Under the pieces are notes generated by a model. It did no database searches. It saw only the letters and a list, made by a program, of their open reading frames with translations, and was not told where the DNA came from. A stretch of DNA of 35,564 nucleotides. Origin: an uncultured Bacilli bacterium (GTDB lineage Bacteria; Bacillota_I; Bacilli_A; RF39; UBA660). How positions within the stretch are numbered: position 1 is the stretch's first letter; each line of letters opens with the position of its first letter. The translations under genes and the position numbers were made by a program. The stretch is taken from NCBI GenBank assembly GCA_947629375.1, contig CANRDN010000020.1:1-35564 (forward strand). The letters are read 5' to 3'. Shown here in pieces: positions 2,781-26,315 of this stretch.

Positions 2781-3525
2781 ATCCATTATCTTGAGAAACT
2801 ATCAATTTAATTTTTAAGATTATGACACCTTCATCAGGGTGTTCTTTTTTGTATGGAATAGTTTGCTCTCCCCAGAATGTGTCGGCATCGTCACTTTCTA
2901 CATATAATCCACCGTGAACAGAACCAGCAAAGTTTTTCTCTGTAACATCTACTTGATGATATTCGCCTGTCTCTTCGTTATATTCATAATAAGGGCACCC
3001 TGGAACATAAGTATAAAAATCATTCAACCTGTAATACTCTTTTTCAGATTCAAAAGGCCAAGTTAAATTTACTTTAAATTTCATCATATCACCAGCATTT
3101 ATTTTGTCACTTTCATAACTAAAGGTAATTTTAAATGGAAGGTCACTATTAGCTATATTAAGTAAATTTTCATAACTATAATGTTCTCCAAAAACAATAA
3201 CTTCCTCAACTTCGTAAGAAAATTTTGCATTTAAATCACTTCTATTTCTTACTTCAACCTCGTGATTAAAATCAGGCATACCAGGATACAAATCATCTAT
3301 TTCTATATCTATAAGCTCAACTTGTGCTTCTTCATTTATAAAAGCAATATCCCAAGCAACGACATCAGCATCGATATGTCCTTGTCCATTAGTCATAAAG
3401 ACAAACCAAGCGAAAGAGTTAATTGCAAGCAAAAAACAAGCCATAAAAATCGCTCTTATTTTGATTTTATTTCTTCTTTTTTGTAGTTCATTGTATATCT
3501 TTCTCGTTCTCTTCACTTTCATCAT
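2779..3525 (-). CDS. TasA/camelysin-like secreted protein
   Basis: A 248-aa surface protein, last gene of the ATPase/signal-peptidase unit. A basic N-terminus (residues 1-25) is followed by a hydrophobic segment (about 26-45) ending N-S-F-A-W-F-V-F, the pattern of SipW-processed TasA/camelysin-like proteins. The mature part is acidic and beta-rich: strand D-A-D-V-V-A-W-D-I-A-F, then L-Y-P-G-M-P-D, then paired strands, as in TasA-type subunits with a jelly-roll fold. A single Cys lies in P-G-C-P-Y-Y. Its start overlaps the 3' end of the upstream SipW gene by 38 bases, suggesting translational coupling. The likely role is a minor subunit of a surface fibre or a cell-surface accessory protein. 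It lacks LPXTG, so retention would depend on polymerisation or on leaving the N-terminal helix uncleaved. Confidence 0.75.
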   Translation of the reverse strand: MMKVKRTRKIYNELQKRRNKIKIRAIFMACFLLAINSFAWFVFMTNGQGHIDADVVAWDIAFINEEAQVELIDIEIDDLYPGMPDFNHEVEVRNRSDLNAKFSYEVEEVIVFGEHYSYENLLNIANSDLPFKITFSYESDKINAGDMMKFKVNLTWPFESEKEYYRLNDFYTYVPGCPYYEYNEETGEYHQVDVTEKNFAGSVHGGLYVESDDADTFWGEQTIPYKKEHPDEGVIILKIKLIVSQDNG

Positions 3526-4057
3526 CCTTTGGTTTTGTAAAGAAATCGGCTATTTCTAAGAATGCTACTAGGACAAGTGGTATAAATATTAAGAAGTAAA
3601 ATCCTAATCTATTTCTTATTAAATGCGTTAATAAACTGATAAGTATAAAACGATATGTTACTTTACCATATAATTGTGTACTATCAATCTGAGGATCTTG
3701 TTCCTCGTTAGCAATACCTTTAGTAATTAAAGTTTTCTTTTCTTTGTCCATCTCTATAACACGGTGAGTTACAATACGGTCTTTAAAATCTGCTACCTTA
3801 CCTAAATATGTAACATCATCTCCAACTTCAATGTTGTTATAATCCTCTTCGTGAACTAAGATAACATCTCCTACTTTATATTCTGGTTCCATACTGCTTG
3901 TAGCAATCGTAAATACTCTATAACCAAAAATACTAGAATTGTTACTTACTTTTTGAATAACTAACATTAATACATATAAAACTACTACTGTAATAAATAG
4001 AGCTTTAATTGTATTATAAACTATTCTAAAAATTTTATTGTTTAATATTTTTCTCAT
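3488..4057 (-). CDS. sipW: SipW-type signal peptidase I
   Basis: A 189-aa membrane-bound ER/archaeal-type signal peptidase that removes signal peptides of secreted subunits. TM1 spans about residues 17-35. The catalytic region has T-S-S-M-E-P (Ser55) and the second conserved block has T-H-R-V (His98), the Ser-His pair of the SipW class rather than the Ser-Lys pair of LepB. A conserved G-D follows Ser55 at 63-64. A C-terminal hydrophobic region (about 140-175) gives a second membrane span. The start is placed at ATG 4057, preceded by GAGG at a 6-base spacing; an upstream TTG at 4084 would overlap the previous gene and has no site. It lies between the DUF2357-like gene and a TasA-like gene, so the 248-aa protein is its most likely substrate. 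Confidence 0.9.
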   Translation of the reverse strand: MRKILNNKIFRIVYNTIKALFITVVVLYVLMLVIQKVSNNSSIFGYRVFTIATSSMEPEYKVGDVILVHEEDYNNIEVGDDVTYLGKVADFKDRIVTHRVIEMDKEKKTLITKGIANEEQDPQIDSTQLYGKVTYRFILISLLTHLIRNRLGFYFLIFIPLVLVAFLEIADFFTKPKDDESEENEKDIQ

Positions 4058-4065
4058 TTTATACC

Positions 4066-5151
4066 TCAATCTAGTAATAAGCAAGCTTCATTAATTATAC
4101 TATTTGCTTCTTCAAGTTTTTCTTTTAATGTTCCAACAATCTTTTCATTTCTCTTATCATATTTACTTTTAGCAATATCGAATTCATCACTAAAAATACT
4201 TTTTAATTTATCTGCTAAAATCTCATCATTTATATCCAAAATATTTTCAATAACACGAGAAAGTGCTAAAGAAATAGCTTTCTTTTCTGTAACTTGATCT
4301 TTCTTTTTAGATAGAAAATTTATAGCTAAATAATCGAGTAAAAAAGACTGGTCGAACTGGTTTCTAATATATCCCACATCGTATATTTCTTCACTATTTT
4401 TAACAACTTTGCAGTCTTCATCTACATATTTTTGTAAATAGTTCCACAATTGTTCTGCTTTCTGGAAGTTAGGATTTTTTAAAATAACATTAGTCTTACG
4501 AATTGGAGAACGAACTGGTGGTACGTGTAAGTGAGTTAAAGTTTGATAAAGTTCACTGGTTGTAAACCCATCTAATTGAATCTTAATCTTCTTTAATCTA
4601 TCTTCAATTGTTTCTGAACCCTCATCTTTACTTTTCAAATTAGTATTTAATGATTCATACATAACTGTTATTTTAACAGTTTCTGTTCCTATTCTTGTAT
4701 TAGCTTCATATTTTGCTTTCTTTTCATCTTTAAAATAAGAGTCACCCAAAATTGTTACTGAGTGTTGTTCAAAAAAGGCTCTCATATTATTTAAAAGACT
4801 GAAAATGAATCTATTTTCGTAAGTATCCAAACTTTCATCTTTATTTATATTTAGTATTTTAACGGGTTTTACATCGCCCTTTTTTTCATCATAATCTTGA
4901 ATCAAGTTAGTATGCTGAGTTAAATGAATAATACTTTCTACTGTTACTTTCTTTGATAATTCAACTTTAACTACTTCTTCTTCATTTATGATAAATCTTT
5001 TAGGATTACGAAGAATATTGTCGATATATGGAATAACATCTTCAAATTGATAAACCCAATCGTAGTTATAATCTTTACTTTCAAAGTCAGTATTAATCTT
5101 AATATTAGAATTTAACTCTTCGACAAAGGAAGTACCAACTTCGTTATCCAT
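4066..5151 (-). CDS. DUF2357/McrC-like protein without visible nuclease domain
   Basis: A 361-aa soluble protein. Two blocks typical of DUF2357 proteins are visible: I-P-Y-I-D-N-I-L-R-N-P-K-R-F-I at 40-54 and E-S-L-D-T-Y-E-N-R-F at 106-115. DUF2357 proteins are encoded next to McrB-like AAA+ ATPases and are considered McrC-like partners; many are longer and carry a PD-(D/E)xK nuclease at the C-terminus. Here the C-terminal ~150 residues are helical and Lys/Glu-rich and show no D-x(n)-E-x-K signature, so the protein looks like a regulator or adaptor for the ATPase encoded 15 bases upstream rather than a nuclease. The AAA+ gene precedes it and sipW follows 8 bases downstream. Assignment is by motif only. 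Confidence 0.7.
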   Translation of the reverse strand: MDNEVGTSFVEELNSNIKINTDFESKDYNYDWVYQFEDVIPYIDNILRNPKRFIINEEEVVKVELSKKVTVESIIHLTQHTNLIQDYDEKKGDVKPVKILNINKDESLDTYENRFIFSLLNNMRAFFEQHSVTILGDSYFKDEKKAKYEANTRIGTETVKITVMYESLNTNLKSKDEGSETIEDRLKKIKIQLDGFTTSELYQTLTHLHVPPVRSPIRKTNVILKNPNFQKAEQLWNYLQKYVDEDCKVVKNSEEIYDVGYIRNQFDQSFLLDYLAINFLSKKKDQVTEKKAISLALSRVIENILDINDEILADKLKSIFSDEFDIAKSKYDKRNEKIVGTLKEKLEEANSIINEACLLLD

Positions 5152-5166
5152 ATAATCAATCCTTTC

Positions 5167-6726
5167 CTATACTAATTTCTTTAATCTTAATAAGTAATCC
5201 TTACATTCATTAAAATGTTCTTTACCGAACTCTTCATCTAGGAATTTAATAAATCCATCTATTTCATCACGGATATATGCTAGATTCAATTGTTCAAATT
5301 TTCTTAATATTTTTCTTGCTATGAAGTAATCTACTCCATCAACTTCTTGTCCACCACAAGCAACGTATGCTGATACGAAGTCACCCATCTGTTTAACAAT
5401 ACGGTTACCAAAAGCAATACGGAAATGTTTAATAACATAGTTATCCATCTCTTCTACTTTTTGATGCATTTCTTCAGATATTGGATATTTATTTTTAGCT
5501 TCCTCGTATAGACTTTCTAGGTAACTGCTATTTATATGCATTGCTTCTGTATCTATTGGTTCAAAAGGTTGTCCTTTATCATTTATATCTATCGGCATAG
5601 CACGGTCGTATACTTTATCAGTAACAGCAAATGTTGAGTCATCGTTATTGATTGTACCTATATACCACATATTTCCTGGTATTTTAAGTTTACCATCGAT
5701 AAGTTTTTTAGGGTCGTTTGGCCAGCTACTTGAAACAAGTTCGACAATCCACTCATCACGGCTAGGCATTTCAAGGATTGATAACATCTCGGCAAAGTAA
5801 TACTCGACACGAGCGATATTCATTTCATCTAGAACTGCTACATACACATCATCGTTGTATCCAGCTTCGTACATCTTCTTTAAGATTTCTGTTTCATTAA
5901 ACTTCTTTGTAAATTCATTGAAGTATCCGAAAAGTTCTGTACGGTCACGCCAAGATGGTTGAACTGACGCAATTATGGCATCATTTTTAATAAATTTACC
6001 CCAAGCATAAGCAAGGGAAGTTTTACCTGTTCCAGAAATACCTTGCAAGATTACAAGTCTCGTACAAGCAAGAGATGAGATAAACAAACGAATCATTTCT
6101 GTTGTGTAATACAAATGAAGTTTAGAGGCAGCAAAGTTTCTAAACAATTCAACTAACTCATCAAGTTTAAATGTATTGTTATAATTTTGTAATTTATAAT
6201 TTTGAAACATTAAGTCGATAGTACACAACTTAGTAAATCTAACTGAATCATCGACAACTGTTTCTTCACCATCTTCATTTTCTTCGTCAGTTTCAGTTTC
6301 ATCTTTAGCTTCCGGTGTATCAATAACTGCACTTTCATCGGGTTTCAATCCCATCTGTGAAACTTTCATTGCAAGTATTTCTTCTTTTTCTTTAACTAAA
6401 TCGCCAACTTTTTTATTTAAAACAGCTATTTCTGCAAGCATTCCTTCCTGCTCTACCAAAGTCTTACGAAAACGGATATATTTTCTAATAATCAAATAGA
6501 ATATTAAAATGATAAGTCCTAGAAGTGCAATCATAAAAGCTATAGCAATAATAGCAAGTATCCATTCTCCAATTCCAAATTCTGATTTATAAAATAAAAC
6601 AACATCGATATATTTAGGTATGTTAAAAATCTCTGCAAAACCATTTACAAAGCCCATAAATATCGATTTTATTCCATCAAAGAAAACGGACATAAATTCA
6701 TATAAAAAGTTTATAAATTTACTCAT
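5167..6726 (-). CDS. Membrane-tethered McrB-like AAA+ ATPase
   Basis: A 519-aa protein. The hydrophobic N-terminus holds a clear transmembrane helix at about 55-82, followed by a charged coiled coil (about 88-125), a Glu/Asp-rich linker (about 136-163) and a C-terminal AAA+ domain. Walker A is G-I-S-G-T-G-K-T-S near 228-236. Walker B is V-L-D-E-M-N-I-A-R-V-E-Y-Y-F-A-E near 297-311. The sensor region G-T-I-N-N-D-D-S-T and the D-K-V-Y-D-R-A arginine-finger segment lie near 356-375. This motif set is that of McrB/AAA_5-type ATPases paired with DUF2357 proteins. A membrane anchor is unusual for that group. The start is ATG 6726 after AGAGG; the GTG two codons upstream overlaps the ribosome binding site. 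It likely forms a ring at the inner membrane with the downstream DUF2357-like protein. Confidence 0.85.
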   Translation of the reverse strand: MSKFINFLYEFMSVFFDGIKSIFMGFVNGFAEIFNIPKYIDVVLFYKSEFGIGEWILAIIAIAFMIALLGLIILIFYLIIRKYIRFRKTLVEQEGMLAEIAVLNKKVGDLVKEKEEILAMKVSQMGLKPDESAVIDTPEAKDETETDEENEDGEETVVDDSVRFTKLCTIDLMFQNYKLQNYNNTFKLDELVELFRNFAASKLHLYYTTEMIRLFISSLACTRLVILQGISGTGKTSLAYAWGKFIKNDAIIASVQPSWRDRTELFGYFNEFTKKFNETEILKKMYEAGYNDDVYVAVLDEMNIARVEYYFAEMLSILEMPSRDEWIVELVSSSWPNDPKKLIDGKLKIPGNMWYIGTINNDDSTFAVTDKVYDRAMPIDINDKGQPFEPIDTEAMHINSSYLESLYEEAKNKYPISEEMHQKVEEMDNYVIKHFRIAFGNRIVKQMGDFVSAYVACGGQEVDGVDYFIARKILRKFEQLNLAYIRDEIDGFIKFLDEEFGKEHFNECKDYLLRLKKLV

Positions 6727-6735
6727 AAGCACCTC

Positions 6736-7779
6736 TTATATCATATTAATTTCATTTATGAATATTTCTTTACCTTTCATAACATAATTATCTATCAAAT
6801 TATAATCTTCTCTTTTAGCATCTCTTATGATGACATATTTAAACAAGTCAAACTTGGCTATCTCATCTAATATTGCTTCGACATCTAATACATCTTTTAA
6901 ACTTACTGAAATTGCAAAAGTAAACTTGTTATTATAGTGATTTAAAATCTCTTCATAATTTTTATAGTCGTTGTACTCTACTAAAAAGATAATATAGTCT
7001 TTAACTTTAATATTATCGAAAGTTGAAACAAGACCAGCAAGAGACTCCTTAGTAACTTCATAATTAAGTTCTAGAGGAACAAAATACTGTTTTAAATCTT
7101 CATTATTTAAAATCTTTTTAAGATAATCAATATCAAGTAAATCATAGAAAGTTTTATTTCTTTCTTCTCCTAATAAATTACCTTTAAAGTTTTTATCGAT
7201 TACAGGTTTTGTGTAAATCTTAGATAACTGTTCTATATCATAATCTAGTTCTACAAGTAATCTATTTTTATCCTCTATAATTTCTTTATAAGATAAAGAG
7301 AAGTTTGGAACATTAATTTTTTCTAAGAATTCTCTTTCCTTTAGAACATTTTTTGCTACTTCCTCTGTTAAGTTATTTAAACTTTCATTATCTTTTCCAC
7401 TGAAGATATTTTCTTTTAGTAAAGTGTTAAAATCTTCAGTAGAATTACAATTACTAAAATCAAGTAAATCTATAGCAATTGCAATAAAAGATAAGTTGTA
7501 ACAAGTATCGATTAAAGTATTATTTTTTAAAGAATTATCTTGAAATAATTCTAGTCTTTTACCTTTAAGTTCTTTAACGACAATCGATTTATCAAAGTTA
7601 GATACAACTCGGTCATAGTAAGTTTTTAAAATGTGATAATAATAAGAATTTATATAAGTGTCAAAGAAGGAATCTAGATAACCACTAGCTTCTTTATGAA
7701 CATTTTTTGAACAAAATATTAGGGAATAAGAAATTAAGTTTTTCTTCTTGAAGTTAAAATACTTATCAATTATGTTCAT
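6736..7779 (-). CDS. Hypothetical cytosolic protein, first gene of the ATPase unit
   Basis: A 347-aa soluble protein that I do not recognise. It is rich in Asn, Lys, Leu and aromatic residues, with no membrane span, signal peptide or nucleotide-binding loop. The C-terminal half has alternating strands and helices (for example D-Y-I-I-F-L-V-E-Y and F-K-Y-V-I-I-R-D-A) suggestive of an alpha/beta fold. Its stop is 9 bases from the start of the AAA+ gene, and it has its own promoter at 7816-7844, so it leads a five-gene unit with the AAA+ ATPase, the DUF2357-like protein, SipW and a TasA-like protein. It is a candidate third component of the ATPase complex, based on position only. Confidence 0.75.
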   Translation of the reverse strand: MNIIDKYFNFKKKNLISYSLIFCSKNVHKEASGYLDSFFDTYINSYYYHILKTYYDRVVSNFDKSIVVKELKGKRLELFQDNSLKNNTLIDTCYNLSFIAIAIDLLDFSNCNSTEDFNTLLKENIFSGKDNESLNNLTEEVAKNVLKEREFLEKINVPNFSLSYKEIIEDKNRLLVELDYDIEQLSKIYTKPVIDKNFKGNLLGEERNKTFYDLLDIDYLKKILNNEDLKQYFVPLELNYEVTKESLAGLVSTFDNIKVKDYIIFLVEYNDYKNYEEILNHYNNKFTFAISVSLKDVLDVEAILDEIAKFDLFKYVIIRDAKREDYNLIDNYVMKGKEIFINEINMI

Positions 7780-9457: not shown

Positions 9458-10045
9458 TTATTCTCCTATATATTGATATGCTCTAAGTCCCAATTTCAAA
9501 TAAGTACCCTCTACATCTCCTTTTCCAACATTGGAATCAGTTTCATTTTCATTTTCATTATTAAGCCATTCGACATTAATAATTAGAGTCTTTTCTTCAC
9601 CATTTAAAACTTTATCTAAAGGAATAAATCCTTGAAATCTATTGCCTGAAAGATGCGTCAACTCTTCGTTTTCCAATTCGATAGAAGTAACTGTAAGTAA
9701 ACAATTGGGGTCCATCGTATGGTCATAATAAGTTATCTCGTAACCAACAGCAACCTGAGTATCTGTAGGATCAATCTTAATTCTTACTATTCCTTTACTA
9801 CCGGGTGCTACTGTATTTGCACTTGCATGTTCGTTTTCCCAAGTTATATTCTTTATTACAATATCAGAAGCAGCAGTGGCAATATTTTGATCATCTATTT
9901 TAAAACTCCAAACAGCAACTGGTAAATCTACTTCTCCTTCTCCCTCTGTTTCGTAGGAAGTATTCGTTCTTTTACTACTAAAATAGATAAAAGCACAAGA
10001 AAAAAGAAGAAGAACTACTATAATTACTTTAGTGCCTTGTTTCAT
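9458..10045 (-). CDS. TasA/camelysin-like secreted protein
   Basis: A 195-aa protein with a short N-terminal hydrophobic segment (about 6-23). The mature part has the order seen in the family: V-A-V-W-S-F-K-I-D-D-Q at the start, V-A-P-G-S-K-G-I-V-R-I-K-I-D, G-Y-E-I-T-Y, then L-I-I-N-V-E-W near the end. It resembles the 197-aa protein at 23713-24306 in plan (A/V-R/V-W-x-I/F-K-x-x, then L/V-A-P-G-x-x-G, then I-K/E-W), so the two are probably paralogues. It is the first gene of a new transcription unit, directly after a terminator and an extended -10 box. Likely a fibre subunit or accessory protein processed by SipW. Confidence 0.75.
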   Translation of the reverse strand: MKQGTKVIIVVLLLFSCAFIYFSSKRTNTSYETEGEGEVDLPVAVWSFKIDDQNIATAASDIVIKNITWENEHASANTVAPGSKGIVRIKIDPTDTQVAVGYEITYYDHTMDPNCLLTVTSIELENEELTHLSGNRFQGFIPLDKVLNGEEKTLIINVEWLNNENENETDSNVGKGDVEGTYLKLGLRAYQYIGE

Positions 10046-10117: not shown

Positions 10118-10648
10118 TTATTCATCTTTATCATATTTTAAAATCATAATTACACGATATACGTGGTAGATAAATAGTACCAAAACTGGTAGAATTACAA
10201 ATATTAAGAATCCAGCAGTCGATGTTAAGAAAGATATAATTGAACCGAAATTGCTCATCGACGTATTATATGTTCCTAAAACCTTATAATTAGGTATTAT
10301 TATGTTGCTTTCATTAATTGTATACTGTGAAGAACGATTATCTCCTGTTTTGGTTTTAACTGTTCCCATTCTTACAATATACTCGTCATTAAGTAAGTCA
10401 TAGTAGTATATTTCATCACCAATGTTTATATCGTTATAATTAACATTTTTTATTACTAGTAAATCTCCACTTTTATAATGAGTTAACTCTGTAGTATTGT
10501 AGTCGTCTATTAATATTAACGTATTACCTGCAAATGAAGTGTATCCAAAATCATTCTTAAGGAATACGATTCCAACCATTACGATGGCAAAGGCTATTAT
10601 TAGAAATTCTAAAAAGCCCAAGGCGAAATTCAAAATACGTTTTTTCAT
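10118..10648 (-). CDS. Catalytically dead SipW-like signal peptidase paralogue
   Basis: A 176-aa two-span membrane protein with the plan of the SipW proteins nearby: TM1 at about 12-30, an F-G-Y segment, an exterior beta domain with Y-K-S-G-D and I-N-I-G-D-E-I, and a C-terminal TM. Lining it up with the 189-aa SipW, the Ser of S-M-E-P becomes Thr53 (T-E-L-T) and the His of T-H-R-V becomes Arg93 (V-R-M-G). Both catalytic residues are therefore missing, so it should not cleave; a chaperone, scaffold or substrate-holding role is possible. The start is ATG 10648 with GGTGA five bases upstream; the ATG at 10660 overlaps that site. It follows the giant surface protein gene and precedes a terminator. 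Confidence 0.75.
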   Translation of the reverse strand: MKKRILNFALGFLEFLIIAFAIVMVGIVFLKNDFGYTSFAGNTLILIDDYNTTELTHYKSGDLLVIKNVNYNDINIGDEIYYYDLLNDEYIVRMGTVKTKTGDNRSSQYTINESNIIIPNYKVLGTYNTSMSNFGSIISFLTSTAGFLIFVILPVLVLFIYHVYRVIMILKYDKDE

Positions 10649-10664
10649 AATTATCACCATTTAT

Positions 10665-10715: not shown

Positions 10716-13700
10716 CTATTTGAACGGTATATCCTTTCTTACAATTATATATTCAAAGTCTTCATCGATTAGTTCGTTTTCATTATAAAGTTTAAATACT
10801 AGTTTATATGTTCCACTTTGCAGCTCGTCTTGTAGATTATAAGTAAGTTCTGTTAATTCTTTTGGACTAGTAGAAATCATATATTCATAATCTGATTGTT
10901 TAATATAAGTAGAAGTAGGCTCAGTAAATGAATCAGTAAATAACATATTAATATCCACTTCATTATAAAGAATTGAATCAGGACTAGATGTATCTCTTTT
11001 ATATAGAGCTACTCTTATATTTGGATCTTTTAAAACAGAATCATAAGTAATCGAGAATTTCTCTACTTTAGAATTATTCATATTTAGACCAGTTTCACCA
11101 ATTATCAGTTTCGATTCATCTTCTGTATCTACTACAATTAGGTTTTGGTCTCCAACGACAGTTAATTCTATTTCTTTTACTACTTCTTCAAGGTCACTAC
11201 TATTATGTAATCCATCACTTGATGCGAAAAGCGAGACTTTCATCGTATATCGTCCTGCCGGTAAAGTGTTACCAGTAACTAGTTGCAACGTTCTCGATAA
11301 GTTAGATACTTTATCAGATAACTTGATTCTAAATACTCCATTACTATCTACATAGTATGTTGTTCCATCTATTGTAATAGAAGTACTTGCAAGAAGTGAT
11401 GAAGATATTTGTTCACCTGTTGTATCATAGAATGTTATATTAAGACCCATACTACTACTTTCATAGTTAGTATCGACAATTGATTGACGAAGTTCAGTCT
11501 GTTTATATCCGACTGTTGAGTCATATGAAAAATCTTTTTGAGTGTCATAATATAAATAATCTGAGTCATACTTTATCGTTTGAGAAAGTGTTATGTTACT
11601 TGCTTCATACAAGTTATAAGTCATTATGTCCTGACGAATTCCAAGTACAGTGTATAAAGTAAAGTCATCAGGGTCCCTAATTTCCATTATTATTTTATTT
11701 CCCGTTTGTTCTCCAATTCCAGTAGTATCATAGAAATCAAAGATAAAGATATATTCTTCCATTAGATAATTCAAATCATCGTGATAATAGATTTTGTTAT
11801 TTTCAGCATCTTTATAATTATTATCAGCATCGATTGAATCCATTCTTATGAATTTAGATAACGGATATATTATTTCTTCATTTTCTGCAAGTTGCCTTAC
11901 AGAATCCTGGTATGTTGCTTCATCGACAATAAAGTAATAATGTCTTGGATTTGTTTCATTGAAACCAAAGTCTAACATCGTTATTTTAGTTCCAACTGGC
12001 AAAGCATAATTGGATACTAAAGCGTGATAGTTTTCATTGTTATGTCCATAGAAATCACTTGTTTTATCAGTGTTTGCGAACAATGAGTAATATGCCGTAA
12101 ACTGGCTTTTGTTTGTTATGTTAACAGTAGTAGTTGCAGGCATTTCGTACGCTTTAGCATATGTGATACTTGCGTCGTAAGCATCCTCTAAGTCATATAT
12201 TTTAGTATTTATATTAATTGATATTGTTATAAGTTTTACTTCATATTCGATTTCATTTTTTGGAATCAAAGCTTGAAGAGTGATAACAACTGTACCAAGT
12301 TCTTCTTCTGAACTTATGTTTTTAGCGTGATACAAGTAGAACATTAAAGAAGAGGCAATATCCTGGCTGTCGGATTCATAAGTTGTTGTACCTTCATAGC
12401 TACTTTTTGGATCTTTTAAATATTTTGTTGTTCCATAGTTTGCCCACTCGATTGTCTCTGCTTTCATAGCAAGACCCATAACACGATTAGCGTCATCTGG
12501 GTTAGTTGCAATCTTTGGAACTTCAAATGAATCTTTTAGGACAACACCTTCTGTTAATCCATCGGCATTAAATCCGATAACATTAAATATTGTATTACCT
12601 TTCGTGAAATCCATCATTTGTAACTCGTATGTACCTAAAGATGAATATTTAGACGCAGTTAAATCAAATTCATAGTTAACAGATGCTGTACCGATAATCC
12701 ATCTATAGAAGTTTGTATCTTTTGGTGTTGGATCGATATAGGCAGTTGTTATCTCTGTGTAATCATCATCTATATAGTTCGTATAGAATCCATCTACTGT
12801 AATATCGTGATTAACATTGTGAAGTCCAAGAACATACGAACCTCCGATTAAAACATCTGATGCGTCTCCACTAGATCCATAAGTTTTACTTTCATCGTAC
12901 ATACCATAAACATAAGTACCATTTGAATATGTTTGATACATTCCCATAAAAGTCATTCCAGAAACAACACCATATTCTGATGCATTTTCGTTAGTGGTAA
13001 CATTTAAGTTATTACCTGCAAGTAAATATAGACGGTTGTCGACATTCTTAGTTATTGTTTTACTTTCATCGTCGATTTGAACAGAGGCCTTTACTTCTTT
13101 TCCGTCTATATCAACTGCACTATCAAACTCTTTAAGCATATTCGCATTTTCTCTTAATAAAAGAGATGAATCGTTTTTAATTACAAATTTATCGATACGG
13201 TTTAAAGAGTATTTAATTGTTGAGTATTCATTAGTTCTATCGGTAGTTCCCGTTAGCTCAAGGTGAGAGTCATCAAGTGTTACAATATCGGCACGCTGAA
13301 TTGATACAGCTGTATCCGGTGTTCCTCTTTCACCAAGTTTTCTAATATATATTGATGATGGGCCAGCTGAAGATGATGCATTTCCTGAACCAAAGATACT
13401 TCCTGTTACAACGAAGTCTAAATCGTTTGGTCCATATCCTGTACCATCTACTAAAACTGTTATTCCTTTAGTAACACTTATGGCGTTATAGTCATAAACG
13501 TCACTTCCAGCTTCGTTTGCTTCTCCTCCACCAAAGATTGTACCTGTTACAGAAATATCTCCAGGTATAACTCCTTCGTGTTCTTGCAAAGCACTTTTTC
13601 CGATATATACCTCAGTTACTCCATAGACAACTGATGTATTACATCCGCCATACACGTTTCCTCCAACTTTGGCACCAGCTAGATGGACTTTAACAGTACT

Positions 13701-16700
13701 TGAGTCTTTTCCTTCTTCACCGATTGCGCCGTGGTTTCCTCCACCAAAGACATTTTTCTTGATGTTAGATACTCCATAGACGTGGACTGTAGAGTCTCCG
13801 TGAATTGCAGCTTGATTTCCTCCACCATAAACAGATTCTTCTACCATTACATCTTGAATTACAACTTCGGAGCTACCAGTAGAAATAGCTTGGTTTCCTC
13901 CACCGAAAATATTAGTATAATGTCCATTAACTAAATTAATTTCTGTATTGTTAGTCGTTCCTCCTAAGTTGTTACCACCATAGACATTGACAACATTAAG
14001 AGTATCTTTAGCAGTACCTTTTGTACTTACTAATGTTTTAGAAACATCACCATTTTGGTTAGATCCACCATAGACATTTTCTATTTTTCCATCTGACAAA
14101 TAAACATTAGAATTAGTAACACCTACTTGGTTTCCTCCACCATAAATATTAGTTATCGTACCATTGTTTACAGTAATCGATGTATCGCTAGTAATTCCAT
14201 CGGCGTTATTTCCACCAAAGACATCAGTAGCAGTTCCATTGTTGATAATGATATAAGAATTTGCTATATCACCACCAGCGTTACTTCCCCCAAACAACTG
14301 ACCAATTTGTCCACCGTTTTGCGTAACATTTGTGTTTGTTCTAACACTTGCTTGTTCTCCTCCACCGTAGACACTTGGGATGTTTGTTTCGTTTACTATT
14401 ACATTTGTTTCTCCTGATGTAGCAAGACGACCTCCACCATAAACGGCTTCTTTAATAGTTCCTCCATTTATTGTGACATTGGCAACATCTGTTTCACCAC
14501 CAGAGTTATTACCACCATAGATTGTATCTACAATACCACTTGTTGTTATGATATTAGATTCATCAACTGTTCCTCCAGAGTTACTTCCTCCAAAGATTTG
14601 AGTTACTGTAGCACCGGCTAGATATACGTGGTTTGTGTGAACACTGGCGTTGTTACCTCCACCAAATGTTCTACCTATTACTCCACCATTTAAATAAACA
14701 TTTATTTCACCATTTGGAGTACCTGCTGCATCGTTTCCTCCAAAGACATCAGTTATATTTCCATCATTAATATTTACATCGATGTCACCTAAAACATAAG
14801 GTGTAAATGTCGAGTTTCCTTTACCTCCACCAAAGACGGACTTCTTAACCGTTCCTTTATCCACTGTTACTGTTACTTTTTTATTAGCTACTGTAGTATT
14901 TCTTGTCGTTCCATTAACAGTACCGAAAGCACTTCCTCCATAGACTGAACCTTCAATAATTGGTGTCTCATTACTATTTTTGGAACCTATATTGATGTTT
15001 ACATTTCCACTTACATAGGTTCCATCCGATGTGTTAGAGTAACCACCATAACCGCCACCATAGATATCAGTATTTATTGTTCCACCAGTATGGTTTATAG
15101 TTACATCACCATAAATAGTTCCTGATTCATTAGACCCACCATAGATAGACCCGTTAACAGTTCCATTTTCCATATTAATGTAAACACTAGCAGGTCTATT
15201 AGATTGTCCAGAACCATTTCTGTTTCCTCCACCAAAAATGCTACCATTTACCGTTCCATTTAAAATATCAATATAAGTTTCAGAAGATGATACTTGAATT
15301 CCAACAGCTCCATAATTTCCACCACCATAGACATTTCGACGAACTAAGGCATCATCATTAATTATTATATAAGAATTATTAGCTGTTCCAATAGAATCGT
15401 AATTTTGTCTTCCATTACCAATTCCAAATACACTTCCTGCTTCAAAACCAAATAGGTTGCTGTTAGCATTTACATATTCTTCACTTCCAATAACAGCGTT
15501 ACCACCGATATAAATGTAAGGCGAACCAGTTAAAGCACCATCTGTACCAGATCCTGATACTCCATTAGATCCTCCAAAAACGCTATAATTGATTGTTCCA
15601 CCAGTTACTTGAATAATTCTATTCCCATATGTTGTAGACTGTCCAGCTCCACCGTTGATAGCATCAACTTCTCCACCTTTAACATAGATAAATGTATCGT
15701 TACGATTTTCATTACTCTGTTGAGAAAGTGGTCCTCCAATTAAATTGTAAATCCAACCACCTTCAATAAGAGCCTTTCTGGTAGTATAGTTTCCACCATA
15801 ACTACGACCGCCAACATACAAGCCGTGACTAAAGCTACTTGCATCTGTATTAGTTAGTGATGTAGGTCTTGCTGAACCTATTTTTCCACTTTTAACAATA
15901 GTATATAATGCAGCTTCATCGTAATCAGAACTTCTAATATTATTTCCCCAAGATCCTGCTGCACTAAAATAAACATCAAAATTATCGTTATTATTACTAA
16001 CTCTATCATAGTCATTACCATAGATTGCGGTAGCATTTACATAAACGTTCCTAGAGGAACTCGTAGAAACTCTCCCTGAGGTTACTGAAGTTGTTTCAAA
16101 AAATCCTGACTCTACTACGAATCGATATTTTGTAGGTGCACTAGCTGACCCGGTTGCACTATTATTTCCACCATAAGCAGAAACAAAGTTAACTTGAGTA
16201 GTTTGTGACTTAGTAATTCCACGACCAAACTTTGTATTATAATAGTTACCATAGAAATACTTACTTGTCGTATTAGCTGTAGAATTGGCAGGGTTTTCTG
16301 ATGTTCTTGTTTTATTAGAGTATATTATGATATTTTCGATAACTAAGTCGTCTCCTGCACTAACATAAGTATTAGTTATAGTCCAAGTTACAGGATATTT
16401 AGTACCACCATATGATCCAGTAAATGTTAAAGGTTTAGTCTGAGTAGTTCCCCAGCTACCTGTTAAGTTTGATTGCAATACAACAATATTTGTATCTCTT
16501 GTTACAAGATAATAATATTCTTTGTTTCGATCAAAAGTATTGAAGTTACCTGATTCATCATAGTACTGAATTAGTTGATAATAAGTACAAGATGTCTGAT
16601 TACAGTTACCACTTACTGCTTGTCCAGAAGCATCATAATAACCAGATGCATTCTCTCCTCGTCTTAATGTAACTTGTTCATAATAACTGCTCATATTGTC

Positions 16701-18563
16701 TTCTTGTGAGAATAAATCTTCGTAATCATAGACATATTCAACTGGTGGTGGTACTTCATCAACCGCTTGCATTGTACCACCGACAATTTCATAATATGTT
16801 GTATTTCTATTATAGAGTTGTCCATCCGTAGATTGATAGTAAGTACAATCTCCCCAAAAAGATCTACATCTACCAGTAAGTGCATCTCCATATTGGTCAA
16901 AGCTATTAGCGGGATAATTTTGGTTATATGAAGCTGTACCTCTTGTATAGTAACCATCCATTATTTTATCTTCCAAATTTCCAACAGTCTCACTAACAAT
17001 AATTTGTCTTTGAATTTCAAGGCGTTGCATACTTGTATCGTTAAACTGTCTAATTGCGTTAGTAAAATGTGTTGTTGAATTTGATGTAACAAAATAAATA
17101 TCGGCAACTACCCAAACAGCACTGAAGTCTATTGCTATACTTTCAGGTACACCATCTTTATAAGTTACAGGAACCTTGGCATAACGAGTATATATTTCGC
17201 TATCGAAACTAATAGTTACTCCTTTTGCACTTGTCTGCCATCCGTTAAATCCATAATCTTTTGGTCTATTAGTAAATGGATTATCAATAAGTTCTACTAA
17301 AACATAATCGTCCGTATAATTAGAAGGTGTACCATTATCGTTAACTTCAAGAGTCTTATAGTATACAAAAGTGTCTTGAGGTTCAGTTGTCGAAACAGAA
17401 GCATTTAAATCTTTTCCATTTGTGGTTACACTTCCGAAATAACTTATCTGCATTTTAACTAAATTATTATTGCTATAAAGATTTTTATTCTCCATTGTAG
17501 GAAGGCTTCCATCAAGACTAGTTGTATAGTTAAGTCCCATAAAATAGTTATAGTCAGATTCCATATCGTTTATATATACGATATTCCCAACTATTCCTGA
17601 GTCGTGCACTTCAAAATTAGGTACTACAACATCATAATTACTAGATTTATTATCTTCTACTCTTGTTAAAGTATAAACACCATCTGCCATAACCCAAATA
17701 TACTTATCAGCACCTTTATTTAAATTATCAAAGAAGTCATCTGTTATCGTATCTTTTGTATAAATTGAACTTGGTAAATCCGTATAAGAAATATTACTGT
17801 TAATATAAATATTATTTAAACTTGTATTCTCACCTAAGCTTGCAACAGCGTTAGTCTTAAGTAATTTGTTTTCAACAACTGTAACATTTGCAAAAACATT
17901 AGAAACTTTGCTATTTTCTAGATAACCGGATACATTACCAAAATTAGAAGAAGATGTAGTACTTTTTTTCTTTAAAGTAACTGAAACATTATTAATAGAA
18001 ATATTATTCAAATTAGAATTATTCAAAGTACTTCCTGATAATGTTCCAAAATAAATATCGTTTTCTTTAGACAAATCAATAGTTATTGTATCTAAATTTA
18101 TATTAGAAATTGTTGCCCCATCAACAACACTAAATAATCCAGAATACTCTTTTTCTTTAATTACTTGCGAATCATTTATTTTTAAATTAACAATCGTATG
18201 TCCCTGTCCATCAAAGTGACCACTAAAGGTTTTATTTTCTATACCTATTGGTTCAAAAGAAAGACCAGCCATATCAATATTGTCAGTAATTACATAGTAC
18301 TTATCTTTGTAACTATCGCTTTCATTACCTTCAATAACTTTTTTAAAATAAGCAAGTTCCTCTCCTCTTGATATTTGATAAGGATTATCAACTGTTCCGT
18401 TACCACCACTAAAAGAAGTCGCTGTTTCACCACTCCATACATTTTCTATTGCCACAAAGTTACTAAGTGTATTGGGAAGTAATTTATAAGTAATACCTAC
18501 TACTATTAACAATAGAAAAAGTCCACAAAGTATTAAGTTTAATCTTAAGCGTTTCTTCTTCAT
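10716..18563 (-). CDS. Giant repeat-containing surface protein (putative adhesin)
   Basis: A 2615-aa protein, the largest in the window. A basic N-terminus and one hydrophobic helix (about 7-28) act as signal or anchor. Residues ~45-270 contain G-N-G-T-V-D-N-P-Y-Q-I and F-S-G-H-F-D-G-Q-G-H-T-I-V-N-L with following I-S-N-I-N-L rungs, as in GLUG/parallel beta-helix adhesins. Residues ~330-950 are beta-rich, Tyr/Thr/Asn-rich, and include two C-T-Y-Y-Q loops (Cys566/573, Cys654/659). Residues ~990-1725 hold about 24 cycles ending in V/I-Y/F-G-G-G/S-N. The remainder looks like several Ig-like or beta-sandwich domains ending in I-I-V-R-K-D. No LPXTG, choline-binding or SLH module is seen, so it is held by its N-terminal helix or by partners. 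The start is ATG 18563 with GGAG six bases upstream; the TTG at 18575 overlaps that site. It follows the extended SipW by 17 bases. Confidence 0.9.
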   Translation of the reverse strand: MKKKRLRLNLILCGLFLLLIVVGITYKLLPNTLSNFVAIENVWSGETATSFSGGNGTVDNPYQISRGEELAYFKKVIEGNESDSYKDKYYVITDNIDMAGLSFEPIGIENKTFSGHFDGQGHTIVNLKINDSQVIKEKEYSGLFSVVDGATISNINLDTITIDLSKENDIYFGTLSGSTLNNSNLNNISINNVSVTLKKKSTTSSSNFGNVSGYLENSKVSNVFANVTVVENKLLKTNAVASLGENTSLNNIYINSNISYTDLPSSIYTKDTITDDFFDNLNKGADKYIWVMADGVYTLTRVEDNKSSNYDVVVPNFEVHDSGIVGNIVYINDMESDYNYFMGLNYTTSLDGSLPTMENKNLYSNNNLVKMQISYFGSVTTNGKDLNASVSTTEPQDTFVYYKTLEVNDNGTPSNYTDDYVLVELIDNPFTNRPKDYGFNGWQTSAKGVTISFDSEIYTRYAKVPVTYKDGVPESIAIDFSAVWVVADIYFVTSNSTTHFTNAIRQFNDTSMQRLEIQRQIIVSETVGNLEDKIMDGYYTRGTASYNQNYPANSFDQYGDALTGRCRSFWGDCTYYQSTDGQLYNRNTTYYEIVGGTMQAVDEVPPPVEYVYDYEDLFSQEDNMSSYYEQVTLRRGENASGYYDASGQAVSGNCNQTSCTYYQLIQYYDESGNFNTFDRNKEYYYLVTRDTNIVVLQSNLTGSWGTTQTKPLTFTGSYGGTKYPVTWTITNTYVSAGDDLVIENIIIYSNKTRTSENPANSTANTTSKYFYGNYYNTKFGRGITKSQTTQVNFVSAYGGNNSATGSASAPTKYRFVVESGFFETTSVTSGRVSTSSSRNVYVNATAIYGNDYDRVSNNNDNFDVYFSAAGSWGNNIRSSDYDEAALYTIVKSGKIGSARPTSLTNTDASSFSHGLYVGGRSYGGNYTTRKALIEGGWIYNLIGGPLSQQSNENRNDTFIYVKGGEVDAINGGAGQSTTYGNRIIQVTGGTINYSVFGGSNGVSGSGTDGALTGSPYIYIGGNAVIGSEEYVNANSNLFGFEAGSVFGIGNGRQNYDSIGTANNSYIIINDDALVRRNVYGGGNYGAVGIQVSSSETYIDILNGTVNGSIFGGGNRNGSGQSNRPASVYINMENGTVNGSIYGGSNESGTIYGDVTINHTGGTINTDIYGGGYGGYSNTSDGTYVSGNVNINIGSKNSNETPIIEGSVYGGSAFGTVNGTTRNTTVANKKVTVTVDKGTVKKSVFGGGKGNSTFTPYVLGDIDVNINDGNITDVFGGNDAAGTPNGEINVYLNGGVIGRTFGGGNNASVHTNHVYLAGATVTQIFGGSNSGGTVDESNIITTSGIVDTIYGGNNSGGETDVANVTINGGTIKEAVYGGGRLATSGETNVIVNETNIPSVYGGGEQASVRTNTNVTQNGGQIGQLFGGSNAGGDIANSYIIINNGTATDVFGGNNADGITSDTSITVNNGTITNIYGGGNQVGVTNSNVYLSDGKIENVYGGSNQNGDVSKTLVSTKGTAKDTLNVVNVYGGNNLGGTTNNTEINLVNGHYTNIFGGGNQAISTGSSEVVIQDVMVEESVYGGGNQAAIHGDSTVHVYGVSNIKKNVFGGGNHGAIGEEGKDSSTVKVHLAGAKVGGNVYGGCNTSVVYGVTEVYIGKSALQEHEGVIPGDISVTGTIFGGGEANEAGSDVYDYNAISVTKGITVLVDGTGYGPNDLDFVVTGSIFGSGNASSSAGPSSIYIRKLGERGTPDTAVSIQRADIVTLDDSHLELTGTTDRTNEYSTIKYSLNRIDKFVIKNDSSLLLRENANMLKEFDSAVDIDGKEVKASVQIDDESKTITKNVDNRLYLLAGNNLNVTTNENASEYGVVSGMTFMGMYQTYSNGTYVYGMYDESKTYGSSGDASDVLIGGSYVLGLHNVNHDITVDGFYTNYIDDDYTEITTAYIDPTPKDTNFYRWIIGTASVNYEFDLTASKYSSLGTYELQMMDFTKGNTIFNVIGFNADGLTEGVVLKDSFEVPKIATNPDDANRVMGLAMKAETIEWANYGTTKYLKDPKSSYEGTTTYESDSQDIASSLMFYLYHAKNISSEEELGTVVITLQALIPKNEIEYEVKLITISININTKIYDLEDAYDASITYAKAYEMPATTTVNITNKSQFTAYYSLFANTDKTSDFYGHNNENYHALVSNYALPVGTKITMLDFGFNETNPRHYYFIVDEATYQDSVRQLAENEEIIYPLSKFIRMDSIDADNNYKDAENNKIYYHDDLNYLMEEYIFIFDFYDTTGIGEQTGNKIIMEIRDPDDFTLYTVLGIRQDIMTYNLYEASNITLSQTIKYDSDYLYYDTQKDFSYDSTVGYKQTELRQSIVDTNYESSSMGLNITFYDTTGEQISSSLLASTSITIDGTTYYVDSNGVFRIKLSDKVSNLSRTLQLVTGNTLPAGRYTMKVSLFASSDGLHNSSDLEEVVKEIELTVVGDQNLIVVDTEDESKLIIGETGLNMNNSKVEKFSITYDSVLKDPNIRVALYKRDTSSPDSILYNEVDINMLFTDSFTEPTSTYIKQSDYEYMISTSPKELTELTYNLQDELQSGTYKLVFKLYNENELIDEDFEYIIVRKDIPFK
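13385..15600 (-). repeat. Tandem Y/F-G-G-G/S-N coding repeat array
   Basis: About 24 degenerate repeats of roughly 23-40 codons inside the giant gene. Each ends in a motif such as V-Y-G-G-G-N, I-F-G-G-S-N or V-F-G-G-N-N, preceded by an N-G-G/T-x-I/V strand. The unit length varies and the DNA is diverged, so these are protein-level repeats with the periodicity of parallel beta-helix rungs rather than recent DNA duplications. Confidence 0.85.
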
Positions 18564-18580
18564 ATACTTCTCCAAGATAT

Positions 18581-19693
18581 CTACTTTTTAGAAGAGATAT
18601 TTTTAATACTTTTATTATTAATTAACCTTTCTTTTATATCTTTTAATTCAAATTTTTCAGAATGACCTACTGTTTCTACAATTTTTTCTATTAGAGATAA
18701 TACATCTTTAATATGAGTTTTATCGTTGTAAAAGCTATCATTTTTATCAATTAATATTCTATATTTCATTATTTTAAATACTGTATCAAAGTACTCGTTC
18801 TCATCATAGATAAGTGTATAACTAAGAAGCATCAAAAATACATAAATAGGCATTTCATAAAGTTTTTCTTGAGCTTCCTTTGATATAGGAACGTTTTCCA
18901 TATCATAGTCATATAATTCTTCAAATGGTTTATCTTTGACATAAGATGGTATTTGATTACTATCTATTGATATTAATAAAGCTAATTCATATAGATATTT
19001 AAGTTTTAAAGAACCTTCGGTAGTTAATTTAAGTTTTTTATTTTTATGTTTTAATCTCAATTGTTTTACAAGAAGGTTAACAAATTCCATACCTTCTTCT
19101 GTTTCAAGTATTTCTACTTCATCTTTATGTACTAAAGGAATCTTAGTATCATTTTTAACACTTATTGTTTGGGTATAATCAAGAGGTGTTTTGCCTTTTT
19201 TAGATTTCTTTTTTTCTTTTAAAATATATTTTTTAAAGATTGATTCAAAGTTAAAAATTAAATAAATAATTATTAAGAATACTAAGACTGCTATTGCTTT
19301 TAAAATGCTTTCAAAAGATATTACTGATGATACTCTTCCAACGACATTCTCTTTTTTTACTGGATCATCAACAATATTATTTATATCTCCCTTAGTAGTA
19401 ATAGTATCCTTACCGATGCTTTCAACACGATGTGTAACAAACGCACCTTTTTCTTGATAAGTAACAATATCCCCTACTTGATAACCACTACCAATATTTA
19501 CAATTACTATATCGTTTACTTCGATTGTTCCAGACATACTTCCCGTTGCAACAATAAAATAAGTATAGCCAAAGACATCGACATAAGGCTGTCCGAAGAC
19601 TTTAGTGATAAAAAAAGTATACATAGAAAAAAGTACTAAAACTGATGTTAAAGTATAGACTAAGTATTTACTTGTTCTTTTTATGATATCCAT
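18581..19693 (-). CDS. SipW-type signal peptidase with long C-terminal extension
   Basis: A 370-aa membrane protein. TM1 at about 10-30, catalytic G-S-M-S-G-T-I (Ser52) and F-V-T-H-R-V (His88), conserved V-N-D and V-G-D turns, and TM2 at about 131-153 make a complete SipW-type (Ser-His) signal peptidase. After a Lys-rich linker comes an extra, mostly helical and charged domain (about 155-370) that should face the cytoplasm. SipW-class enzymes are usually under about 200 aa, so the extension is unusual; I recognise no family in it. The start is ATG 19693 with AGGTGAG upstream; the GTG at 19705 lies inside that site. It has its own promoter and is followed after 17 bases by the giant surface protein, its likely substrate. 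Confidence 0.85.
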   Translation of the reverse strand: MDIIKRTSKYLVYTLTSVLVLFSMYTFFITKVFGQPYVDVFGYTYFIVATGSMSGTIEVNDIVIVNIGSGYQVGDIVTYQEKGAFVTHRVESIGKDTITTKGDINNIVDDPVKKENVVGRVSSVISFESILKAIAVLVFLIIIYLIFNFESIFKKYILKEKKKSKKGKTPLDYTQTISVKNDTKIPLVHKDEVEILETEEGMEFVNLLVKQLRLKHKNKKLKLTTEGSLKLKYLYELALLISIDSNQIPSYVKDKPFEELYDYDMENVPISKEAQEKLYEMPIYVFLMLLSYTLIYDENEYFDTVFKIMKYRILIDKNDSFYNDKTHIKDVLSLIEKIVETVGHSEKFELKDIKERLINNKSIKNISSKK

Positions 19694-19715
19694 ATATATA
19701 CTCACCTATTCTATC

Positions 19716-21762: not shown

Positions 21763-21780
21763 AAAGACCTATTGGTCTTT
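21763..21780 (-). terminator. Intrinsic terminator after the 340-aa gene
   Basis: A 7-bp stem AAAGACC/GGTCTTT with a 4-base loop, followed by T residues on the minus strand. It overlaps the stop codon of the 340-aa surface protein. Confidence 0.75.
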
Positions 21781-22801
21781 ATCCGTTTATACTTGCATTA
21801 GAGCTGAACTCTAGATCAAATGTAATATCTCCACCAGATACAACATCTTCACAGTCAACATCTTGTCCTTCAACCCATAAGTAAACTCTTACTTTTGAAA
21901 CACCTGCTGGTAATACAAATGCTTGTTTATATGCATCTACTGAAATTCCAGCAGTCTTTTGAGTTGATATGTCCGGTGTTACTTTTGTAAAATATGTTTC
22001 AGTACTATCTAGTTTAACTCCTACAGGAATAGCCTGATTAACGCCATAATATTCAACAGGGTCGTCAAGAGTACCAGTTAAATCTTCTTTGTGATATACG
22101 CTTAATGCGTTAGCAATACCTGATGGTGTATGAGTATCATTATTAGGTTCCCAAATTACAGCATCATTACCGTGTAAAGCTTGAATTGTTGTTGCGCCAG
22201 CACCAGCAGTTGTTGTGTTATCTTCTCCGCCAACTACAAATCCAACACGAGCAGCATTTTCAATACCAGTTTCCTTTCCACCTGCTTTTGCAGTTACTTT
22301 TGATTTTTCAGTTAAATAAACTGTTGTTTCTTCTTGAACTTTAATAAATAAATCGAATGCTATAAAATTTCCTGTTTGTCCCTTTGTTTCAACGTCAGCA
22401 CTTGCAGTTAAAGCATAACTTCCATCTCCTCCAGCTGAAACAGAACCTAAAAACATTTTCATTAATCCAGCTGCGTCAACATCACCAACCGTTGAAATAG
22501 GAGCTAAGCTTTCATCATCTTGTGGGAATTGGTTTTTATTATCAGGGTAATTTTCATTAGTTCCATTTATTGTGTTTATAATGTCTTCATTAGTTATAAC
22601 AGGTTTCCATTCAACACCATCGACAGAAATTTGTAAACCACTTGATGCAGCGACATTTACATTTATTGAATTTACGCTAACTGTTTTATTAGCAGTAAAC
22701 CACGCATAAGTACTTGTAACTGTCATAAGACCTGTTAACAATAACATTAAAAGTGCAAGTAACAATCTTCTTTTTTTGCTTCTTTTTCGTTTGTTTTGCA
22801 T
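21779..22801 (-). CDS. TasA-like major secreted subunit candidate
   Basis: A 340-aa exported protein. A basic start (residues 1-12) and hydrophobic core (about 13-29) end in S-T-Y-A-W-F-T (30-36), the hallmark N-terminus of SipW-processed surface proteins in Bacilli. The mature part is low in Lys, rich in Thr, Ala, Gly and Val, and ends in beta strands V-R-V-Y-L-W-V-E-G-Q-D-V-D-C (Trp309 to Cys317) and D-I-T-F-D-L-E-F. The W-x-E-G-x-D-x-D-C block recurs in the next protein. Its Ala/Gly/Thr-rich composition differs from the Asn/Lys-rich neighbours and fits a major structural subunit. AAAGGA lies upstream of the ATG. It follows the 234-aa gene by 15 bases and ends in a terminator. Confidence 0.8.
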   Translation of the reverse strand: MQNKRKRSKKRRLLLALLMLLLTGLMTVTSTYAWFTANKTVSVNSINVNVAASSGLQISVDGVEWKPVITNEDIINTINGTNENYPDNKNQFPQDDESLAPISTVGDVDAAGLMKMFLGSVSAGGDGSYALTASADVETKGQTGNFIAFDLFIKVQEETTVYLTEKSKVTAKAGGKETGIENAARVGFVVGGEDNTTTAGAGATTIQALHGNDAVIWEPNNDTHTPSGIANALSVYHKEDLTGTLDDPVEYYGVNQAIPVGVKLDSTETYFTKVTPDISTQKTAGISVDAYKQAFVLPAGVSKVRVYLWVEGQDVDCEDVVSGGDITFDLEFSSNASING

Positions 22802-22816: not shown

Positions 22817-23521
22817 CTAATCTCTTATTAATCTTTCTTCTGTAATATCCATATGCATTTTAATTCCTCCACCTAACAAATCATTATTGCAATCAGGATC
22901 GTCGCCTTCTATCCATACTACAATAGTAAATCTGTCTTTATCTCCAGGTGAGAAATCTTTTCTCTCTTCAAGTACTGCTATATCATCTGAAAAGAACTTA
23001 GTTGTTCCTTCTTCTGCTTCGCCAGTCTTTTCGTTGGCTTTAGCATAAATTGTTTTCTCTCCGTTGTGATAAATCATAACTCTTATAGCCTTGTCGAGAT
23101 TTCTAATTGAATCATCCACATCTATTTCATACCAATAGTTAATAGTATTCTTACCCTTATGTACTAAATAGAAACTATAAGCAAAATAGTTTGGCCCATT
23201 ATGTGGCCCATCAGCTTCCGTATCTACATCCTCGCTAATCCATTTAACAGAAATATTATCCATATATTCTGATGCATCGGCATACAGATTTCTGGATTTA
23301 GTATTTGTGCTTCCATCTTCTGATAAGAAAATACTACTTTTTAACATATCCCTATCAACAGAAATTGTAAAACTGCTTTCATTGTATATTACATAAAGTA
23401 TAAAATAAATTGATGAAACTAAAAGCAATAGCAATAAAAAGACTATTTTAGCAATTCGTAAGAAAAGTTTCTTTTTGTGGACTTTTGCTGCAGTAGTAGA
23501 AACACTATAATCTCTTTTCAT
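22817..23521 (-). CDS. TasA-like secreted protein with W-x-E-G-x-D-x-D-C block
   Basis: A 234-aa exported protein. It has a 22-residue basic N-terminal tail, a Leu-rich helix (about 24-46) and a beta-rich acidic mature part. Near the C-terminus V-V-W-I-E-G-D-D-P-D-C (Trp203 to Cys211) followed by L-L-G-G-G-I-K-M-H-M-D-I matches the end of the 340-aa protein encoded next, so the two are distant paralogues. Members of this group are usually secreted fibre or pilus-like subunits processed by SipW. The start is supported by GGTGA five bases upstream. It leads a two-gene unit whose promoter is at 23579-23607, diverging from the 197-aa gene. Confidence 0.75.
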   Translation of the reverse strand: MKRDYSVSTTAAKVHKKKLFLRIAKIVFLLLLLLVSSIYFILYVIYNESSFTISVDRDMLKSSIFLSEDGSTNTKSRNLYADASEYMDNISVKWISEDVDTEADGPHNGPNYFAYSFYLVHKGKNTINYWYEIDVDDSIRNLDKAIRVMIYHNGEKTIYAKANEKTGEAEEGTTKFFSDDIAVLEERKDFSPGDKDRFTIVVWIEGDDPDCNNDLLGGGIKMHMDITEERLIRD

Positions 23522-23607: not shown

Positions 23608-23662
23608 CAAATTTAGACACCATTTTTTGTAAATTTACAATATTTTATTTTTAGTTTGACAT

Positions 23663-23691
23663 TTGACTACATTATTATCATATGCTACTAT
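23663..23691 (+). promoter_or_regulatory. Promoter of the 197-aa gene
   Basis: TTGACT at 23663-23668, 17-base spacer, TACTAT at 23686-23691 with TATGC in front (extended -10). The start of transcription would be near 23698, leaving a leader of about 15 bases with GGTGA at 23703-23707. Confidence 0.7.
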
Positions 23692-23702
23692 ATTAATATA
23701 GT
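23687..23702. promoter_or_regulatory. 16-bp perfect palindrome over -10 and start site
   Basis: ACTATATTAATATAGT is a perfect 16-bp inverted repeat overlapping the -10 box and the predicted transcription start of the 197-aa gene, a classic repressor-operator position. AT-rich palindromes arise by chance in such DNA, so this is tentative. Confidence 0.4.
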
Positions 23703-23712
23703 GGTGAATGGT

Positions 23713-26293: not shown

Positions 26294-26315
26294 TACTACA
26301 CCTCTACAAATGTAA

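Follow-up and report, generated by a model that had tools for sequence, protein, structure and literature searches.

The window, i.e., the entire 35,564-nt stretch of DNA analysed, corresponds to contig C20 in the 1.87-Mb assembly of an uncultured Bacilli bacterium (GCA_947629375.1). It contains a run of 15 genes on one strand (positions 2779-23521, no gap exceeding 80 nt), in which the gene of a McrB-type NTPase lies 15 nt from that of a DUF2357 protein, the latter overlapping a SipW-type signal peptidase gene by 19 nt (Table 1). Two SipW-type peptidases that possess the catalytic motifs are encoded in the same run, together with one degenerate SipW-like protein, a 2,619-aa surface protein and small secreted proteins. 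The genes for an NlpC/P60 peptidase with an SH3 domain and a GlcNAc-type glycosyltransferase (24806-28271, minus strand) adjoin this cluster. Promoter and terminator scans of the window gave counts no higher than chance allows.

Table 1. Genes and sequence features of the NTPase/DUF2357 cluster, in order of position in the window.
Feature	Position	Strand	Basis
Candidate SipW-processed secreted protein; conserved FAWF after signal helix	2779-3525	-	alignment, conserved position
SipW-type signal peptidase, directly 3' of DUF2357 gene, overlapping	3488-4084	-	TIGR02228 2.5e-21, SipW 4e-19; SSM serine, THRV histidine
DUF2357 / McrC N-terminal-domain protein, 361 aa, no nuclease	4066-5151	-	PF09823; AlphaFold2 model
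McrB-type AAA+ NTPase, membrane-anchored	5167-6726	-	519 aa from ATG at 6726; McrB 6hz4 match
GTPase signature N-x-D-D (NxD type), N362-D365	5638-5649	-	motif scan of homologues
Walker B LDEMN	5818-5832	-	invariant in NTPase alignment
Walker A GISGTGKT	6019-6042	-	largely invariant in NTPase alignment
Coiled-coil region of NTPase, ~residues 90-125	6352-6459	-	heptad-like Leu/Ile pattern, by eye
Transmembrane helix of NTPase, ~residues 53-84, predicted N-out/C-in	6475-6570	-	hydropathy and charge asymmetry
Third operon gene, 347 aa: N-terminal helical bundle and degenerate EAL-like alpha/beta domain	6736-7779	-	model, Foldseek, hhalign
Conserved secreted protein, 317 aa	7860-8813	-	recurs in relatives' loci
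Conserved secreted protein, 208 aa	8823-9449	-	recurs in relatives' loci
Secreted protein, grouped by the same profile with 23656-24306	9458-10045	-	alignment
Degenerate SipW-like membrane protein	10118-10660	-	TIGR02228 only 0.026
Giant 2,619-aa surface protein, N-terminal signal helix, repeated (Y/F)GG(G/S) motifs	10716-18575	-	sequence reading
SipW-type peptidase with C-terminal cytosolic extension	18581-19705	-	SipW 2.2e-10; TGSM and THRV
Secreted protein, SipW-dependent-type signal (TYAWFT)	21779-22801	-	TIGR04088 E=0.0048, just under cut-off; alignment
Conserved secreted protein, paired with 21779-22801 in Bacilli and Clostridia	22817-23521	-	alignment
Divergently transcribed secreted protein, conserved in cluster	23656-24306	+	relatives' loci, alignment

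The open reading frame of the NTPase extends to a GTG at 6732 (5167-6732, minus strand, 521 aa), and the ATG at 6726 is the start to which the N-termini of its relatives align. The protein matches an AAA_5-type ATPase in Pfam (E=0.0035) and McrB in NCBIfam (2.2e-6), and the PDB matches of its profile are McrB chains only (best 6hz4, E=3.2e-6). It possesses the Walker A and B motifs and the Nx(x)D signature by which the McrB AAA+ family is recognized. In the window this signature is N362-x-D364-D365, residues that can also be read as NxxD, and wherever the motif could be located in a homologue it reads N-x-D-[DE]. From N- to C-terminus the NTPase consists of an amphipathic stretch, one strong transmembrane helix, a positive stretch, a coiled-coil-like stretch, an acidic linker and the AAA+ core. 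No modified-base reader domain was found on it; the N-terminus is composed of the transmembrane helix and the coiled coil and gave no other domain match. The original prediction of a McrB-like ATPase with a transmembrane helix and coiled coil ahead of the AAA+ domain was, thus, borne out: the 19-residue mean hydropathy reaches 3.26 (around residues 56-75), a hydrophobic helix occurs in all 106 distinct homologues (minimum hydropathy 2.45), and the coiled coil can be recognized by eye. The 20 residues after the helix are more positive than the 20 before it in 113 of 117 NTPases (mean +2.5 vs -1.1), and because of this charge asymmetry the helix of the protein encoded at 5167-6726 is predicted to span the membrane with the N-terminus outside and the AAA+ core in the cytosol.

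The 361-aa partner was identified by its Pfam DUF2357 domain (PF09823, E=1.4e-11, residues 36-131). None of the Pfam nuclease models matched this protein; with this library a positive control, the partners of cytosolic McrBs of the same class, did match PDDEXK_7 (7e-27 and 9.5e-52). Its AlphaFold2 model is moderately confident (pLDDT 79, pTM 0.48), and residues 182-361 are helical with a single strand, so that the model contains no PD-(D/E)xK core. A PD-(D/E)xK nuclease on the McrC partner, the hallmark of McrBC type IV restriction, is, therefore, found neither as a Pfam match nor as a fold in the model, in agreement with the earlier claim that the small McrC-like protein lacks it. A hidden nuclease within 4066-5151 was also considered and is ruled out by the profile search, the working controls and the predicted structure, which revealed no conserved nuclease site. 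The extra length of longer homologues (584-861 aa) consists, by inspection, of coiled-coil-like or acidic tails and not of a nuclease, and the nuclease loss is, consequently, a property of the whole clade.

In McrBC the finger domain of McrC sits inside the McrB ring (PMC7680126). The DUF2357 model contains a helix (residues 111-134) and a long beta hairpin (138-173), elements expected of the McrC finger and stalk, and the order of these secondary structure elements suggests a McrC-like finger. A Foldseek search with the model gave no significant match and did not recover McrC, insignificant ones including TolC. The DUF2357 profile matched a canonical McrC template weakly near YENRF (probability 7.7%, E=0.0045), a comparison limited by the small size of this two-sequence template. 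The model further predicts a 48-residue C-terminal helix (313-360). A second DUF2357 gene was not found in the window's own genome.

The protein model of the third gene of the operon is confident (pLDDT 91.8, pTM 0.88). The first 23 PDB matches obtained with it by Foldseek are EAL domains or EAL-containing enzymes, FimX being the first, with a best E-value of 7.3e-3 and TM-scores, normalised by target length, of at most ~0.5. The family showed no significant Pfam EAL match (one of its 56 members matches PF00563, weakly, at 0.011), and no EAL catalytic motif was found, its alignment having no invariant columns. The gene evolves fast (~20% identity), yet its position is kept. In sister lineages its domain follows a SipW peptidase in a single fused protein (hhalign to the C-terminus of the fusion 99.95%, E=1.7e-37); judged from sequence, no other single observation ties SipW as strongly to the NTPase operon. 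Sampling across the class recovered the domain in the window's own family only, in one copy per genome.

Signal motifs and synteny point to several of the exported proteins as candidate substrates of the SipW-type peptidases. Profiles of the secreted neighbours searched against Pfam and the PDB did not match TasA, and the SipW-type signal motif was obtained near the cut-off only. The profiles searched gave no support for these neighbours as TasA/camelysin homologues, matching no TasA structure or Pfam family. A motif scan of the protein encoded at 10118-10660 recovered neither the SM serine nor the THR(V/I) histidine; homologues of this gene recur in the cluster, and the protein is possibly an inactive partner subunit. 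In the 2,619-aa protein, residues 1000-1681 contain 18 (Y/F)GG(G/S) motifs at a spacing of mostly ~25-55 residues, and this region appears beta-helix-like by eye.

Gene neighborhoods were compared for 35 loci from relatives and 80 from named genomes, the latter being for the most part assemblies of uncultured Bacilli, Erysipelotrichaceae, Clostridia and Oscillospiraceae, many of them with a gut-sample label. Among these loci the order NTPase-DUF2357-SipW is the rule: DUF2357 is adjacent in 109 of 114 NTPases, and SipW directly follows DUF2357 in 88 out of 114. After removal of duplicates, DUF2357 is adjacent in 102 of 106 distinct homologues (2 more are at contig ends), a SipW-type peptidase is found no more than three genes away in 96 and candidate SipW substrates are present in the locus in 96, percentages that hold for this clade rather than for McrB proteins in general since the loci were picked by similarity. 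A giant surface protein is often encoded alongside the candidate substrates. The association with SipW and secreted proteins persists under differing gene orders in other families of the Bacilli and in Clostridia. The NTPase profile matched in 83 of 392 genomes of an even phylum sample (E<=1e-30), a number that includes more distant relatives, a few of them cytosolic. The window's own genome holds SipW-type genes above the family cut-off on at least three other contigs and just one such NTPase, and SipW, therefore, does not generally need the NTPase.

Where SipW is absent near the pair (L055, L056, L059 and L061), the pair is followed by the gene of a membrane-anchored protein whose ectodomain contains Asp-rich repeats. 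In L108 and L116 the NTPase and DUF2357 genes are directly followed by that of a ~2,760-aa surface protein, and SipW was not detected in the locus. Some paralogous NTPases are without a DUF2357 of their own (L195, L196). Related membrane-anchored types comprise twin NTPases that flank a DUF2357 gene beside giant surface proteins, a 600-aa NTPase with two hydrophobic helices, often accompanied by a SipW-type gene, and a 900-aa NTPase. The twin arrangement was observed in L072 (7963-17746), where the cores of the two membrane NTPases are near-identical, and in L073; the next gene in L072 encodes a 1,676-aa protein with transglutaminase and antigen I/II-type domain matches, and SipW was not found in this locus. 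In L188 (8858-17993) a zinc-ribbon protein takes the DUF2357 position behind the 600-aa type, and the locus further encodes an ABC ATPase (PF00005 1.7e-24) together with its membrane protein, as well as large secreted proteins. Plasmids of Deinococcus and Polaromonas (L185/L186) carry a cytosolic 800-aa McrB-like NTPase and a DUF2357-like protein without PDDEXK in PP2C/kinase operons; the Deinococcus DUF2357-like protein has a weak zinc-ribbon match. In a tree of the NTPases the SipW-type proteins form one group (support 88/79), to which the twin type is sister (99/94), followed by the 600-aa type; cytosolic McrBs fall outside the membrane types, on long branches.

A clade named CoCoPALM is introduced in one paragraph of the main text of Bell et al. 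(2024; PMC11090510), which gives no detail on the partner. It is described there as an NxD-type McrB domain fused to an FtsB-like transmembrane helix and coiled coil, with a DUF2357 partner containing coiled coils and signal peptidase neighbors. The window NTPase and its homologues show the NxD signature followed by D or E, the universal transmembrane helix with a heptad-like stretch that resembles the FtsB-like arrangement in layout, and, in most cases, the signal peptidase, of the SipW type, in close proximity. Since the testable features listed in that paragraph are all encountered, we assign the pair to CoCoPALM, and the idea of repurposing is, consequently, less novel than it looked. Compared with that main text, our study adds the SipW type of the peptidase, the candidate substrates, the giant surface protein, the clade-wide absence of a nuclease and the EAL-like subunit fused to SipW. 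Our literature search yielded no dedicated study of CoCoPALM and, apart from this paragraph, no papers tying SipW or TasA to McrB or DUF2357.

The cluster shares features with several known systems. The SipW-TasA/CalY biofilm fibre operons of Bacillus likewise bring together genes for small exported proteins and a SipW-type peptidase, but TasA homology of the window's exported proteins was not found in the Pfam and PDB profile searches. These Bacillus operons contain, to our knowledge, no AAA+ or DUF2357 gene. With McrBC of E. coli and Thermococcus gammatolerans the pair shares the AAA+ domain and a DUF2357 protein with a predicted finger and stalk, but it is without a modified-base reader and a nuclease and possesses instead a membrane anchor and a surface-protein context. 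PDC-M26 proteins in PADLOC have a related AAA+ domain, and the plasmid examples also pair with a DUF2357 protein without PDDEXK; unlike the window NTPase, however, they are cytosolic, 800 aa long and encoded in kinase/phosphatase operons. CoCoNuTs, as described in PMC11090510, resemble the pair in the NxD motif, the coiled coil and a McrC homologue that is often without a nuclease. Those with a nuclease-less McrC are described there as always having an adjoining HEPN or other nuclease, whereas no Pfam nuclease was detected among the scanned proteins of the cluster and neighboring proteins of the window.

Taken together, the pair is probably a membrane-tethered, nuclease-free CoCoPALM derivative of McrBC that serves the biogenesis of SipW-dependent surface proteins and not restriction. 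This reading is built on the AAA+ domain, in which Walker A, Walker B and NxD(D) are intact, the transmembrane helix, the coiled coil, the nuclease-less DUF2357 protein, the order of the SipW and secreted-protein genes and the fusion of the EAL-like domain to SipW. Comparative genomics lends good support to the original suggestion that a membrane process has replaced DNA restriction as the role of the pair, namely by the clade-wide absence of the nuclease, the universal anchor, the synteny with SipW and surface proteins and the lack of a full-length relative in phage and plasmid records, comparisons of sequence from which we infer such a change of function.

As to the mechanism, the AAA+ domains would form a hexameric ring under the membrane, which the DUF2357 finger may enter to control NTP hydrolysis, by analogy with the action of McrC on McrB. 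The EAL-like protein would couple this ring to SipW, and NTP hydrolysis would gate or order the release, processing or assembly of exported subunits at the SipW site. We put forward only tentatively that an NTP-driven McrB-type ring, coupled through an EAL-like adaptor to SipW, powers or gates the export and assembly of surface fibres. Gating of a specific step by NTP hydrolysis is likewise possible rather than probable, and the identity of the powered step is where the proposal is weakest.

Alternatively, the NTPase could be a positioning scaffold rather than a motor and mark the sites of surface fibres, as PcdA marks the division plane in Staphylococcus. PcdA of Staphylococcus aureus, also a member of the McrB family that has left restriction for an envelope-related process (PMC10602043), provides a precedent, and the FtsB-like transmembrane and coiled-coil N-terminus named for CoCoPALM in the paragraph of PMC11090510 would be in line with such a role. 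However, PcdA carries EVE domains, its Walker A motif is degraded and it is without a McrC-NTD partner (PMC10602043), whereas in the window NTPase and its homologues Walker A, Walker B and the signature residues are conserved and the DUF2357 activator is retained. This argues for active hydrolysis, as predicted from the motifs, and renders a mere scaffold unlikely.

We assign a still lower probability to a membrane-located anti-phage defence system with another effector, in which the surface genes would be effectors or chance neighbors. McrBC and the CoCoNuTs are defence systems, the PADLOC model PDC-M26A, a candidate defence protein, matches the NTPase (7e-39), and the closest plasmid relatives are the cytosolic NTPase/DUF2357 pairs of the PP2C/kinase operons. 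It is difficult to reconcile such a role, however, with the synteny with SipW and secreted proteins that is kept across many genera in both Bacilli and Clostridia, with the lack of any full-length match in 50,697 phage and 72,556 plasmid records, and with the result of the Pfam nuclease scan of the cluster and neighboring window proteins. That the pair is a decayed McrBC restriction system with an accidental hydrophobic helix would account for the missing nuclease but is hardly credible, as the NTPase motifs are conserved and the helix is universal, and this clade-wide conservation excludes decay.

A role of the pair in the biogenesis of SipW-dependent surface proteins would have consequences beyond this locus. 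PADLOC-style calls such as PDC-M26A may mislabel proteins of surface biogenesis as defence. We know of no other energised, cytosol-facing motor for the SipW-dependent fibre pathway, and the NTPase, if our interpretation is correct, would be the first known to us. It would then show how a restriction motor became an envelope machine, and the SipW-dependent surface fibres of gut bacteria would gain an energy-using component.
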